A DNA stretch of 32,665 nt, taken from Candidatus Afararchaeum irisae (GTDB lineage Archaea > Halobacteriota > Halobacteria > Halobacteriales > Afararchaeaceae). How positions within the stretch are numbered: the stretch's first letter is position 1; each line of letters starts with the position of its first letter. The translations under genes were made by a program, and so were the position numbers. Location of the stretch: assembly GCA_034190545.1 (NCBI GenBank), contig JAXIOF010000037.1, positions 1 through 32,665 of the forward strand. Reading direction: 5' to 3'. This document shows, one piece after another, positions 9,467 to 32,594 of the stretch. The notes under the pieces were generated by a model. That model searched no databases and was not told where the DNA came from. It saw only the letters and a list, made by a program, of their open reading frames with translations.

Positions 9467-10456
9467 TCAGATTCTCTGCTGTAGCTCGGGGTCTACGTTC
9501 CCGTTTCCGAAGTCGTACTCGTCGTCTGTCTCCGACTCCTCCTTCGCTCTCTCGACGTACGGCTCGAATACCTTCTTGAAGCTGACTTCGAGGAACATTC
9601 TCTCGTCGGTGGGTCGCAGGACGTTGCCCGTCTCAGTCTCCTTGTGGACGACGTACTTGTGTACGTTGACCCTACCGGCGTGGCGGAGATCGTCCTTCTC
9701 GGAGGTGATCTCGAAGAGCATCCTCCCGTCTCCGTTGTACTTCATCTTGACGTCGACGTGTCCCGTGTAGATACGGATGGGCGTCGGAGGACGGTAACGT
9801 GAGAAGTACATCTCGTCACCGCGTTTTGTTCCGACCTCGCGGAAGCCGAGACCAGCGAGTGCCGAGTTACACAGTCTCTCGAAGTAGTCGGCTTCGGGGT
9901 TACCCGCACCCGCGGCGGAGGTCGGCGTCTCCGGGGCTGAGTCGGAAGCTGAGTCGGTGACTGAGACCGTCTCGGCATCTCCGGAGTCTGTCTCCATGTC
10001 CATATCCGGACTTGGTTCTGTCTGTGCTCCGCCCGACTCCTCCGTCTCAGAGCCGAAGCTGAAGTCGGGGTCATCTTCCTGACCCGTGTCGTCGTACTCC
10101 TGCTTTATCTCATCAAAGCTCTTGCCGGGCTGTGTAGCCTCCTCTATATCCTCATCCGGCTTAGAGACCGAGGAGTTGGAAGAGGTAGCCTCGCTCTCCA
10201 TATCCGGCTCCGTGTCGTCTGACTCGTCGAACCCGAGGCTGTCCTCCGACTCCTCCAGACCCATTTCGTCCGACTCGTTGAATCCGAAGCCGTCGGAGTC
10301 CGAACCGTCTAAACCCATCCCGTCGCCGGTCTCTCCTGTGGCTTCGTCAGCTTCCGCGGCTTCGGCTTCGTCGGAGTCCTCCGACTCCCAGTCGTCCTCC
10401 CACTCACCCCCGTTCTCCTCGTACTCCTCTTTTAGCTCCTTGAAGCTCTTGTCCAT
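9467..10456 (-). CDS. Acidic protein of unknown function with a duplicated short motif and a C-terminal folded domain
   Basis: The protein has 329 residues. Residues 1-190 are extremely acidic and probably disordered. They contain two copies of K-S-F-x-E-(L/I)-K-x-E-Y-(E/D)-(E/D)-x-G, at about 3-16 and 112-125, and between them a degenerate repeat of G-(L/F)-(D/E/N)-E-S-(D/E). Residues 190-310 look folded, with alternating strands around MYFSRYRPPTPIRIYTG, VDVKMKYN, RMLFEITSEKDD and FLEVSFKKVFEPYVERA. There is no signal peptide and no membrane segment. I do not recognise the family. The arrangement suggests a tethered domain whose linear motifs bind a partner. The ATG at 10454-10456 has an AT-rich box 28-37 bases upstream. 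Confidence 0.8.
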   Translation of the reverse strand: MDKSFKELKEEYEENGGEWEDDWESEDSDEAEAAEADEATGETGDGMGLDGSDSDGFGFNESDEMGLEESEDSLGFDESDDTEPDMESEATSSNSSVSKPDEDIEEATQPGKSFDEIKQEYDDTGQEDDPDFSFGSETEESGGAQTEPSPDMDMETDSGDAETVSVTDSASDSAPETPTSAAGAGNPEADYFERLCNSALAGLGFREVGTKRGDEMYFSRYRPPTPIRIYTGHVDVKMKYNGDGRMLFEITSEKDDLRHAGRVNVHKYVVHKETETGNVLRPTDERMFLEVSFKKVFEPYVERAKEESETDDEYDFGNGNVDPELQQRI

Positions 10457-10483
10457 CTTGTCTCGGTCTCTCTACGGCTCTTC

Positions 10484-10493
10484 CTAAATTAAC
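10484..10493 (-). promoter_or_regulatory. TATA-like box of the acidic motif-repeat gene
   Basis: The minus-strand sequence GTTAATTTAG lies 28-37 bases upstream of the ATG at 10456. Confidence 0.45.
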
Positions 10494-10506: not shown

Positions 10507-11277
10507 TCATCCTGTGGCGTTGTAGACGACGTTGACGTTCGCGGTTACAGTCACGGGACCCGACTCTAACGTAGTGCTCGCACCTCCTGCGTCGCCGCCT
10601 GCCTGTAACATCATGCTTTCCCTAGGGACGAACCTCGACTCCGAGGTTCTCACTGAATGTACGCCTGTGACTGTAATACCGCCCGCGTCTGCTAACGTCT
10701 CAGCCTGTGACTGCGCGTTCTCCATTGCTTCTGTCAGAGCCTCGTTCCTCACAGTTCTCCTCGTCGAGTCCGACAGCGTGTACCTCGCGCCGTCGATGTT
10801 GGTCGCGCCGTTGTCGATGGCTGTGTCTATGACTTTTCCGACTCTACTCAGGTTAGTGAGCTCTATCTCGAACCCGTGTCTCGCGTAGTACTCCGTCTCG
10901 GGCTCGTCAGTCTTCTTCCGAGGTTGGACTACGCGCGGTGTTCTCTCGTCTATCCTGTAGTCAGTCGTACGTATCTGGTCGTCGTCTATACCAATCTGTC
11001 TCAGAGCCTGCCTCATATTCGTGACGTTCTCGGCGAGTCTGTCGCGTGCAGTCTGTGAGTCGTCCGCCCTGGCGACAGATGAGACTCTAACTACCGCCTT
11101 GTCGGGCTGTGCCTCGACCTCACCCGTTGCCGAGACTGAGACTGTCTTTCCCGAACTGGGCTGTGTCTGTGCGCTCGCAGTCGTCGAACTCTGACTCACC
11201 ATGAGTGCTCCCGAGACGAGGAGAGCACTCACCAACACAACACCCGCTAAGTACCTGTAGCTTCGTGACTGTGACAT
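10507..11277 (-). CDS. SIMPL (DUF541) domain protein, exported or membrane-anchored
   Basis: The protein has 256 residues. An N-terminal hydrophobic segment (about 9-30, YLAGVVLVSALLVSGALMV) after two Arg residues is a signal peptide or anchor. The rest matches the SIMPL family: VSVSATGEVEAQPDKAVV at the start of the domain, a central region with paired helices (ETEYYARHGFEIELTNLSRVGKVIDTA is the typical middle part), and ALTEAMENAQSQAETLADAGG near the end. SIMPL proteins are periplasmic or surface proteins in bacteria and common in haloarchaea; the biochemical role is unclear. ATG 11275-11277 has a good TATA box upstream. Confidence 0.9.
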   Translation of the reverse strand: MSQSRSYRYLAGVVLVSALLVSGALMVSQSSTTASAQTQPSSGKTVSVSATGEVEAQPDKAVVRVSSVARADDSQTARDRLAENVTNMRQALRQIGIDDDQIRTTDYRIDERTPRVVQPRKKTDEPETEYYARHGFEIELTNLSRVGKVIDTAIDNGATNIDGARYTLSDSTRRTVRNEALTEAMENAQSQAETLADAGGITVTGVHSVRTSESRFVPRESMMLQAGGDAGGASTTLESGPVTVTANVNVVYNATG

Positions 11278-23743: not shown

Positions 23744-25423
23744 ATGAGCTTGGACAGAGGAAAGCTAGCCGACGCTTACTTCGGACAGGAACGCCTCGCA
23801 CAGCACCATATCTCGTCGTTCAATAACTTCCTCGAACACGGGATGCAGAGGGTTGTCGACGAGCAGGAGACGATAGAGACAGACATAGGCGAGAAAGAAG
23901 GGGAGGAGGAGGTCTACATAAAGCTCGGAGAGGTCGAGGTCGGAACCCCTATGGTGAGAGAGGCAGACGGAAGCGAGGAGACACTCTACCCGCAGGAGTC
24001 GCGTCTCAGGAACATAAGCTACAGCGCGCCTCTGAGGATGGAGATGCAGATCGTCGAGGGCGACTACGAACACGAACCCGTCAAGACGACTATAGGCAAG
24101 ATGCCTATAATGATAAAGAGCAAGAACTGTAACCTCGCGGGTCTCGACGAGGACGAACTCGTAAAGACGGGCGAAGATCCCGTCGACCCCGGTGGTTACT
24201 TCATAGTCAACGGGAGCGAGCGCGTCCTGATGACGAGCGAGGATCTCGCGCCTAACACTATACTCGCCGAGAGAGACACGAAGTACGGCGACGAGATACA
24301 GGTCGCGAAGGTCTTCTCACACAGACAGGGTTACCGCGCGCTCGTCACAGTCGAGAGAGGACGTGACTCACTCCTGAGTGTCGGATTCCCGAGCGTCTCG
24401 AACGACATAAACTTCGTCACACTCGTACGTGCACTCGGGCTTGAGACCGACGAGAAGATAGTCAACTCGGTCTCGAACGACCCCGAGATAGTCAAGTTCA
24501 TGCTCGAAAACCTCGAGGAGGCGGAGGTTCAGACACAGGAAGAGGCGATGGAGCTCCTCGGAAAGAAGGTCGCTAGCGGACAGGCGAAGGACTACCAGAG
24601 AAAGCGCGCCGACTACGTCATAGACAGATACCTCCTGCCCCATCTCGAAGATGTCAGTGAGGACGACGAGGAGGTCAGGATAGCGAAGGCGCATTACCTC
24701 TGCCGTATGGCGGAGACGTGTTTCGAGCTCGCACTCGGAAGGAGGGAGCCCGACGACAAGGATCATTACTCGAACAAACGTCTCAAGATATCGGGCGACC
24801 TGATGCAGGATCTCTTCCGTGTCGCTCTCAACAAGCTCGCGCGCGACGTCAAGTACCAGCTCGAACGTGCCAACATGAGAAACCGTGAGCTACGTGTCGA
24901 CACCGTCGTCCGTAGCGACGTACTTACCGAGAGACTCGAACATCCCCTCGCTACGGGTAACTGGGTCGGAGGACGTACGGGTGTCGCACAGCTTCTCGAC
25001 AGGTCGAACCACATGGCGATACTGAGCCATCTCAGACGTGTCGTCTCACCCCTCTCGCGCGGACAGCCCCATTTCGAGGCGCGCGACCTACATCCGACAC
25101 AGTGGGGACGTATCTGCCCCGGCGAGACTCCAGAGGGTCCTAACTGTGGACTCGTGAAGAACTTCGCCCAGTCGGTCGAGATATCGAAGGGAATAGAGGA
25201 CGACACACACGTACGTGACACACTCTCCGACCTCGGAGTCGAGAGAATACATACCTCGCCGACCTCCTCGGAGTCCGAGGCTGAGACAGAGACAGAGACT
25301 GAGACTGAGACTGAGACTGAGACTGAGACTGAGACTGAGACTGAGACTGAGACTGAGACCGAAGCAGACGCCGATACGGTCGACTCAGAAGAGACCCCTG
25401 AGACAGACGAAGCAGAAGCATAA
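23744..25423 (+). CDS. rpoB2: RNA polymerase subunit B'' (N-terminal half of RpoB)
   Basis: The protein has 559 residues. The opening LADAYFGQERLAQHHISSF, the central GGYFIVNGSERVLMTSEDL and the late CPGETPEGPNCGLVKNFAQS are those of RpoB''. After about residue 505 the conserved sequence ends, and a low-complexity tail of alternating Glu and Thr follows, then acidic residues to the stop. The tail is encoded by a hexanucleotide repeat and is not part of the usual subunit. The split from B' occurs at the normal euryarchaeal site. The next gene begins 6 bases after the stop. Confidence 0.97.
   Translation: MSLDRGKLADAYFGQERLAQHHISSFNNFLEHGMQRVVDEQETIETDIGEKEGEEEVYIKLGEVEVGTPMVREADGSEETLYPQESRLRNISYSAPLRMEMQIVEGDYEHEPVKTTIGKMPIMIKSKNCNLAGLDEDELVKTGEDPVDPGGYFIVNGSERVLMTSEDLAPNTILAERDTKYGDEIQVAKVFSHRQGYRALVTVERGRDSLLSVGFPSVSNDINFVTLVRALGLETDEKIVNSVSNDPEIVKFMLENLEEAEVQTQEEAMELLGKKVASGQAKDYQRKRADYVIDRYLLPHLEDVSEDDEEVRIAKAHYLCRMAETCFELALGRREPDDKDHYSNKRLKISGDLMQDLFRVALNKLARDVKYQLERANMRNRELRVDTVVRSDVLTERLEHPLATGNWVGGRTGVAQLLDRSNHMAILSHLRRVVSPLSRGQPHFEARDLHPTQWGRICPGETPEGPNCGLVKNFAQSVEISKGIEDDTHVRDTLSDLGVERIHTSPTSSESEAETETETETETETETETETETETETETEADADTVDSEETPETDEAEA
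25295..25354 (+). repeat. GAGACT hexanucleotide repeat coding for (Glu-Thr)10 in RpoB''
   Basis: Ten perfect tandem copies of GAGACT lie in frame, flanked by degenerate GAGACA and GAGACC units. The repeat encodes most of the acidic C-terminal tail of RpoB''. Changes in copy number would alter tail length without a frameshift. Confidence 0.95.
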
Positions 25424-29984: not shown

Positions 29985-32594
29985 ATGTCAGTAGAACCCG
30001 AGACAGTCGAGTCAAAGCTCGACGAGAGCGAGCTTCCCGAGAGACTCCATGAGAAAGTCAAGGACGCAGTAGGTAAGGAAGACGTGACCGAGGAACAGAT
30101 AGACGAGATAATCGCACAGACTGAGGAGAGGTACAGGTCGACGCGTATCGATCCCCTAGAGCCCGTGGGTACCGTGAGTGCTCAGTCTATAGGCGAACCC
30201 GGTACACAGATGTCGCTCGACGCCGACGAGGAGGTTATCGTACGCAGAGGCGGTAAGACCGAGATGGGTAGGATAGGTGAGATTGTCGACGGAGTCTTCG
30301 AAAACGCGTCTGAGACAGTAGAAGTCGACGGACACGAGGCTGTGGGCGTCACAGGACTCGAAGTTCTGAGTCTACGTGACGACGAGAAAACCCAATGGAA
30401 ACCCGTCGAGGAGGTCAGCAGACACGAGTCGCCCGACGAGCTCCTACATATTCAGCTTGAGGACGGACGTGATATTAGAGCCACGAAGTCCCACTCCTTC
30501 GTCACACGTGAGGACAACGGGGTCGTTCCAGTCGCTGGAGACGAACTCAAAGAGGGTGACTGGATACCTGTAGTCGGTGACTTCGGATCATCCGACGAGA
30601 CCGATACGGTACGGATCTTAAGATATCTTCCCGACGACGGCTACTGGTCGACAGACGCCGCCGCTGACGGAGGTGCTGTCACCGAGGAACAGGCGAAGAA
30701 CCGACTCGATGCACTCGAAGACGGTAGACTCGACGATGGAGTCTATCCCGTCGGTGGAACAGTCTCCCTTCCGAGACATCTCCCGGCTGACTCCGAGACG
30801 GGCTTCTTCTTCGGAGCCTACTTAGCTGAGGGATATGCCACCGACAGCTACGTCTCGATCTCGAACATCGACGACGGCTTCCTCGACCGTCTCCGTGGGT
30901 TTGCGGAGAGGTACGACCTCACAACCCACGAGTACGAAAACGGCGAGTTCGCCGAGGGACGTGATCTGCGTCTCAACGGAAAGATAGTCGCCGATCTCTT
31001 GAGACAGACATGTGGCGACGAGACCAAACGAGTCCCCGGGTTCGCGTTTGGCTCCTCAGACGACTTTGCCAGAGGTCTCCTACGCGGATACCTCTCTGGA
31101 GACGGAAGCGTGAGCGACGGTACTGTGCGCGCGTCATCGACCGACGAGAAGCTTATCGAGGACATCGCTCTCTTGCTCTCTCGTTTCGGTGTACACGCTA
31201 CACTCGGTGAGACACGGGACTCGTACACGTTACGTGTTCCACGTAGCCATCTCGGACGTTTCGCCGAGAGAGTGGGTCTTGTCGGCGAACGGAAGGAGGC
31301 ACTAGACGAAGCAGTAGCTACTCTCGACGAAGATGTCCCAGACGTAGTCGACCAGATACCCGAGTTCGGCGACGCTCTTGAGGAAGTCGCCGCCGGTGTC
31401 GGTGCTCCGTCACGTGAGTTCAACAGTGCGGTGAAGAGGGGACGTATAGGCAGGAGACGTCTCGAACGCCTCGTCGAACGTGCCGATGAGAGCGGAGTTG
31501 ACTCCGACTCAGTCGAGGATCTTCGTTCCGCGGTCGAGTCCGAAGTAGTCTGGAAACGCATAGAATCGGTCGAAGCTGTCGAGCCCACCCACGACTACGT
31601 CTATGATTTCTCCGTCGCAGGACTCGACACGTTCACGACGTCACAGGGTGTTGTGACTCACAACACGATGAACACCTTCCATTACGCCGGAGTCGCCGAG
31701 ATCGATGTCACACAGGGTCTCCCGCGTCTCATAGAGCTCGTCGACGCACGGAAGGAGCCCGACACGCCGATGATGACTGTCTACCTCAAGGACGACTGGG
31801 CGACCGACCGAGAGAAGGCGCGTGAGGTCGTCTGGGACATAGAGTCAACGACGATACTCTCGCTCGGCGACATCTCTACCAACGTCGCCGAGATGGAGGT
31901 CTCTATAAACTTAGACGAGGAGATGCTCGACGAGCGTCTCCTCTCAGTCGACGACATAGCCGACAAGATAGAGTCTAACCTCGGCGTCGACGTCCGAGCG
32001 AACGGAACACGTGTCTCTTTCGGACCGTCGTCTCCGTCGTACCGCGAGCTTCTCCAGCTCATAGAGGAGCTACGTGAGATCACGTTCAAGGGAATCGAGG
32101 AGATCGATAGGGTCGTCATACGTAAGGAAGACGTCGGCGACAGGGAGGAGTACGTCCTCTACACCGAGGGAAGTGCACTCAAGGATGTCATACAGGTCGA
32201 GGGCGTCGACGAGACACGTACGAGAACCAACAACATACACGAGATGGCTGATGTCTTCGGCATAGAAGCTGCGAGGAACTCCCTCATAGACGAGATGACC
32301 TCCACCCTTGAGGAACAGGGTCTCGAAGTCGACATAAGACACGAGATGCTCGTCGCCGACATAATGACTGTCACGGGAGAGATACGTAGCATAGGAAGAC
32401 ACGGAATCTCGGGCGCTAAGGAGAGCGTCCTGTCGCGCGCCGCCTTCGAGGTTACAGTCAACCAGCTTCTCGACGCCGCAGTCCACGGGGAGATCGATGA
32501 CCTCGACGGAGTCATAGAGAACGTCATCGTCGGACAGCCCATAAAGCTCGGCACGGGAGACGTCGACCTCGTCATGGGACGTCCCGAGGACTAA
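29985..32594 (+). CDS. rpoA2: RNA polymerase subunit A'' interrupted by an intein
   Basis: The precursor has 869 residues. Residues 1-76 and 561-869 are A'' (385 residues after splicing, normal length). The N-extein ends [13 protein letters not shown], and the C-extein starts [20 protein letters not shown]. Joined, they restore the highly conserved trigger-loop-adjacent [16 protein letters not shown]. Later segments (GHYGISGA-like [20 protein letters not shown], then [18 protein letters not shown]) are typical of the A'' end. Without splicing the polymerase active site would be disrupted, so splicing must be efficient. It is the last polymerase gene in the window. Confidence 0.97.
30213..31664 (+). 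mobile_element. Intein in RpoA'' with a LAGLIDADG homing endonuclease domain
   Basis: The element has 484 residues, Ser77 to Asn560 of the precursor. Splicing blocks can be read: block A begins [10 protein letters not shown] with Ser as first residue; block B is ATKSHSFVT (T-x-x-H); blocks F and G are [12 protein letters not shown] and VVTHN, with the penultimate His and final Asn. The +1 extein residue is Thr. Two LAGLIDADG-type motifs lie at 277-283 (GAYLAEG) and about 364-374 ([11 protein letters not shown]), both keeping the acidic residue, so the endonuclease may be active. The insertion point is within GEPGTQM/TMNTF, a conserved active-site position where archaeal RpoA'' inteins are known. 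Confidence 0.95.

Follow-up and report, generated by a model that had tools for sequence, protein, structure and literature searches.

A 32,665-nucleotide contig of Candidatus Afararchaeum irisae (Halobacteriales, Afararchaeaceae; JAXIOF010000037.1 of assembly GCA_034190545.1), analysed over its full length and hereafter called the window, contains a gene whose product, P0001, carries the same short motif twice in acidic sequence ahead of an unrecognised domain. What could such a protein bind, and in which cellular process could it take part? We propose that P0001 is a lineage-specific archaellum accessory, which may bind a putative partner of the linker of ArlCE (FlaCE) via its two motif copies. 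We give this reading about an even chance, since the ArlCE of the same genome is devoid of the canonical motif and the P0001 gene is unlinked to the arl cluster.

Layout and isolation of P0001

The features of the locus are as follows, with positions in the window.

9467..10456, minus strand: gene for the 329-residue protein P0001, in which a compact domain comes after an acidic region of low complexity (residues 1-186).
10382..10453, minus strand: first motif copy and the sequence just downstream of it (residues 2-25; KSFKELKEEY, then an acidic stretch with a tryptophan), matching the ArlCE linker motif (E 4.9e-5; 0 of 20,000 shuffles).
10217..10285, minus strand: three G(L/F)(D/E/N)ES(D/E) units, located between the two motif copies (residues 58-80).
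10088..10126, minus strand: motif copy 2 (residues 111-123; core KSFDEIKQEY at 112-121; E 0.00834; 0 of 20,000 shuffles).
9527..9898, minus strand: unrecognised C-terminal domain (residues 187-310), for which a low-confidence model gives a helix, four strands, a helix, two strands and a helix.

The frame of P0001 opens with ATG and is favoured over an antisense ORF (10086-10487) because of codon usage and GC content by codon position: it shows a GC of 0.75 at third positions and +0.277 bits per codon relative to neighbouring genes, a measure on which the antisense ORF reaches -0.221. A duplicated KSFxE(L/I)KxEY motif in acidic sequence had been noticed from the letters of the DNA, and both copies are indeed found, at residues 3-12 and 112-121 with a spacing of 109 residues; the recurring unit reported between them is likewise present three times, at residues 58, 66 and 75. 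Residues 1-186 contain 35% of D+E and 3% of K+R (18% and 17%, respectively, for residues 187-310), and this composition together with the low-confidence model indicates that the acidic region is probably disordered. Upstream on the same strand are found a SIMPL gene (10507-11277), gatB and an EF-Tu-like GTPase gene. The P0001 gene is carried by a contig (C37) distinct from that of the che-arl cluster (C97). Elsewhere in the window, an RNA polymerase A''-like ORF (29985-32594, plus strand) displays by eye an apparent intein, with a long insert ending in VVTHN after which the sequence resumes, and an RNA polymerase B''-like ORF (23744-25423, plus strand) has a long tail of Glu-Thr repeats at its end.

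Homologues of the whole protein or of its C-terminal domain were confined to its own genome, both in a search of 59 relatives and, at meaningful E values, in a search of 392 members of the order. In the latter, 60 other genomes gave matches at E 0.0149-10 that we took as noise, those alignments that were inspected being short and, in several cases, running through stops or lying in a shadow frame. No homologue was found in genome contigs, viral contigs, plasmids or phages, the genome-contig and viral scans being seeded by peptide patterns of one sequence and therefore reaching close relatives only. In the same vein, a relaxed regular expression detected no motif-bearing ORF in the 29 SIMPL loci that were read (L033-L061). 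The C-terminal domain, which the sequence-only reading did not recognise, has kept this status. Its best Pfam match, OspG_kinase (PF22303; E 0.13 for the whole protein and 0.028 for the domain alone), reaches 12.8 and 14.9 bits over 45 residues, below the family cut-off of 27 bits; NCBIfam and PHROGs returned no family for P0001, and a sequence search of the PDB gave nothing significant (best E 0.024). Single-sequence structure prediction yielded models of low confidence (pLDDT 48.8 for the full length and 51.6 for the domain alone), and Foldseek with the domain model returned nothing at E <= 0.001, its top match having an E of 0.024.

The motif as a conserved island of the ArlCE linker

Searched across other haloarchaeal proteins, the motif of P0001 proved to be the most extended conserved stretch in the linker of ArlCE, which belongs to the switch complex of the haloarchaeal archaellum, the swimming motor. 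This is a link to the archaellum that was absent from the earlier reading and is added by the present analysis. Searched in 392 Halobacteriales genomes, a degenerate DNA pattern for KSFxE(L/I)KxEY (at most one mismatch) occurs in 138 of them, in nearly every case at a single place, against two matches with the reversed pattern as control. Among 46 places read beyond the window's own genome, 41 lie in ArlCE-type proteins (acidic, with FlaC-like and/or FlaE-like hallmarks), four in other proteins, including by eye an aminoglycoside-phosphotransferase-like ORF, and one is unclassified. With the exact pattern followed by GA, 116 stretches were retrieved from 84,980 species, a collection that may omit the window's own genome; 95 of them are haloarchaeal and 21 not, as judged from the record title. 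All 95 haloarchaeal matches are ArlCE-type by regular-expression hallmarks: the FlaC-like and the FlaE-like part are both present in 80, and 15 are partial (six with the FlaC-like part and nine with the FlaE-like part). Haloarcula and Halorubrum are among the haloarchaea with a motif-bearing ArlCE. The 21 others correspond to unrelated ORFs, many from one alphaproteobacterial family, and nine viral matches all fall in unrelated ORFs as well. The motif profile had no match in the PDB at E <= 10.

A profile of 26 positions (A1) was built from 31 ArlCE segments (of 48 distinct ones), none of which came from the window's genome, and was run on 59 genomes. Its two best matches in the window's genome are the two copies of P0001 (E 4.9e-5 and 0.00834). 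In the other genomes, all matches at E <= 0.01 belong to ArlCE (27 genomes, many of which also fed the profile, so that their matches are partly by construction), except for one DUF389-like membrane protein (E 0.00718). Of 40 genomes searched with PF04659, 20 are positive, and in 18 of these the profile matches ArlCE at E <= 0.01; none of the 20 negative ones has a motif match at this threshold. The two exceptions are the window's genome, whose matches are in P0001, and a genome (G022) with an ArlCE lacking the motif, from which the motif appears dispensable to ArlCE. In haloarchaea, the motif is not generic and is near-restricted to ArlCE.

The alignment of 27 ArlCE linkers (496 columns) contains 32 columns that reach 70% identity. 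The longest conserved island comprises the motif and a downstream SG.A.W part, and smaller ones correspond to an NPF start, GLF and FF; the GLF and A.A..FF islands near the start of the linker are possibly other docking motifs. The earlier idea of a conserved island that binds a partner is plausible and supported in part, through conservation in the ArlCE linkers of other genomes; no orthologue of P0001 was found that could show it for P0001 itself. A descent of the whole acidic region of P0001 from an ArlCE linker was also considered, but outside the motif 370 of 2,000 self-shuffles score as high, meaning that the likeness does not exceed composition and leaves this scenario unsupported.

Archaellum genes, putative partner and alternatives

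In the window's genome, contig C97 encodes two CheF, CheW-domain proteins, a HEAT-repeat protein adjoining CheF and an ArlCE with FlaC and FlaDE domains, together with CheY, CheB, CheA, a CheC-like protein, CheD, CheR and ArlF, G, H, I and J, which were named by eye from their sequence. PF04659 has two matches in this genome, on C97 and C25, and none in the window; ArlD is encoded on C25. The ArlCE of this genome (PF05377 at E 9.6e-23) does not carry the motif in its canonical form; at the same position of its linker stands a tandem unit with FEEMKQEF. A regular expression detects it twice, which none of 20,000 shuffles reproduces, and these copies amount to a single tandem duplication; the profile gives it 5.5 bits, a score matched by 1,314 of 10,000 shuffles. 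It was consequently not retained as a clear variant, in view of this lack of profile support, and may be either a diverged motif or no motif at all.

On C25, arlD and the gene of the actin homologue salactin (PF25229) adjoin on one strand (L126 7091-8757). Seven of 40 genomes contain salactin. In six of them PF04659 matches on the strand of the salactin gene, at a distance of 62-264 bases, and the remaining one (G002) gave no match to this family. This adjacency suggests a motility link of salactin, and no paper joining salactin with FlaD/ArlD was among the literature matches listed.

With which protein could the motif interact? In its accessible sections, PMC8978795 describes ArlCDE as binding CheF and, in Haloferax, ArlH, and also suggests a contact of ArlCDE with the polar cap. 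Binding of FlaCE/ArlCDE by CheF is likewise found in the accessible part of PMC2666748, and that of PMC9126983 leaves the CheF-ArlCDE attachment open, with the PH domains of CheF proposed as the contact. A partner on the chemotaxis side, most plausibly these PH domains or the HEAT-repeat protein, would make P0001 a modulator of CheY-P signalling to the motor. Besides the published binding and the proposed contact, this alternative benefits from the presence of two CheF and the adjoining HEAT protein in the genome, from the joint absence of motif and CheF in G022 (where ArlCE is present), and from two genomes of one genus, G028 and G056 (95% and 94% complete), in which no CheF is found and the downstream tryptophan of the ArlCE motif has been lost. 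However, in these same two genomes, which have no CheW-domain match either, ArlCE keeps the core as FDDLKAEY, indicating that retention of the core does not need chemotaxis proteins, and the tryptophan is also missing in G009 despite the presence of CheF. We view a chemotaxis-side partner as unlikely. From these two related genomes, a motor or pole component would be a somewhat likelier partner of the motif core than a chemotaxis protein. As an observation in its own right, G028 (L205) and G056 (L206), with archaellum genes and no CheF or CheW match, are possibly swimmers without chemotaxis.

The motif could alternatively represent an amphipathic helix of generic use in haloarchaea, whose partner would not belong to the archaellum (e.g. 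a chaperone, a protease or a filament) and which ArlCE and P0001 would employ independently. The location of the P0001 gene outside the arl cluster goes in this direction, as does the look-alike in the DUF389-like membrane protein. Nevertheless, such a helix fits poorly with the lack of any match in the 20 genomes without PF04659 and with the ArlCE type of all 95 exact haloarchaeal matches, which makes this explanation rather improbable. In DUF389-like membrane proteins (L211 1116-2522; L174), the motif-like segment is situated between the soluble part and the membrane part.

Finally, the two copies of P0001 score 21.6 and 15.6 bits with the ArlCE profile, for a best score of 10.5 bits in 20,000 shuffles of residues 1-185. 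The regular expression F.[ED][LIM][KR].[ED][YF], which finds both copies in the real region, occurs at least once in one of 20,000 such shuffles and at least twice in none. At the DNA level (at most two mismatches), the pattern retrieves in the whole genome the two copies of P0001 (no mismatch) and one place with two mismatches, and nothing with the reversed control. A coincidence, or a plain duplication within P0001 of an acidic/lysine helix that the composition favours, without any shared partner, is very unlikely: the strong compositional bias of the acidic region and its lack of likeness to ArlCE linkers outside the motif speak for it, but 0 of 20,000 shuffles equal either copy, the E value of 4.9e-5 in the own genome comes from an independent profile, and the match of the first copy continues beyond the core to include the tryptophan-containing acidic stretch (residues 2-25).

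A proposed archaellum accessory and its relation to known systems

To return to P0001 as an archaellum accessory, the observations comprise the motif, its doubling, its near-restriction to ArlCE in haloarchaea and the che-arl cluster of the genome. That P0001 and ArlCE have a partner in common, that P0001 takes part in motility and that it bridges or competes are inferred, and every further step of the mechanism below is conditional in the same way. Each KSFxE(L/I)KxEY segment would form a 10-residue amphipathic helix exposing F, L/I and Y on one face; the full-length model of P0001 places helices at residues 5-14 and 114-122 (pLDDT by block of 72 and 55). This helix may dock in a groove of an archaellum-associated protein, at the same surface as the linker motif of ArlCE. 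The presence of two copies on a long acidic tether could bring avidity, or let P0001 engage the ring-like switch complex at two sites. Alternatively to bridging, P0001 may compete with ArlCE at the docking surface. The C-terminal domain might bring in or sense something else. As a counterpoint, amphipathic E/K-rich helices can converge, as illustrated by the DUF389 look-alike.

In a broader and more tentative perspective, for which we estimate the chances at slightly short of even, the linker motif of ArlCE would be an undescribed docking element of the haloarchaeal archaellum switch or its polar anchor, and the orphan P0001 a new component (two-copy bridge or competitor) that would have borrowed the motif, the canonical form of which would have been lost from the ArlCE of the same genome. 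A description of the motif was not found in the accessible parts of the archaellum literature searched, a scope outside which fall the primary ArlCDE study and subscription papers. As far as the accessible sections of PMC9126983 and PMC8978795 indicate, the attachment of ArlCDE to CheF, to the motor core and to the polar cap is poorly known. Conserved within a linker of otherwise low conservation and found again in an unrelated protein, this motif of 10-25 residues offers a peptide bait and a deletion target in the search for the contact of ArlCDE.

How does P0001 compare with characterised or related proteins? Among the weak Foldseek matches to its domain are DR_1245 (ranks 7 and 9) and SycH (rank 25), the best E of 0.024 belonging to another protein; we take these to represent a YbjN / type III secretion chaperone-like fold, whose order of helices and strands is broadly similar to that of the low-confidence domain model. 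P0001 has no match to PF05377 (FlaC), PF04659 (FlaDE) or PF04283 (CheF) and hence none of the domains by which ArlCE, ArlD and CheF are defined. A likeness to CheF (PF04283), as a cytoplasmic adaptor acting on the switch complex of the archaellum, would hold only if the proposed reading is right, and the absence of PF04283 separates the two proteins. A similar layout is found in G010, in a 318-residue protein (L207 7342-8298; G010:C1:455020) with PF04659 at E 2.5e-25, encoded outside the arl cluster region that was read and, by eye, beside a methionyl-tRNA-synthetase-like gene. As in P0001, a motif-like segment near the N-terminus precedes a long disordered-looking tether and a C-terminal domain. 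Unlike in P0001, this domain is PF04659 and the motif is degenerate, failing the strict regular expression and scoring 6.0 bits (a score matched by 0 of the 5,565 shuffles reported, of 10,000 made). The possibility that P0001 is itself an ArlCE with a divergent C-terminus was rejected, given the missing FlaC part, the predicted beta-rich domain and the location outside the cluster. ArlCE nonetheless shares with P0001 the K-S-F-x-E-L-K-x-E-Y segment, its acidic flanks and a long acidic region. The two differ in that ArlCE has FlaC and FlaDE domains around its linker and usually one motif copy, whereas P0001 has neither domain and two copies, one of them at its extreme N-terminus.
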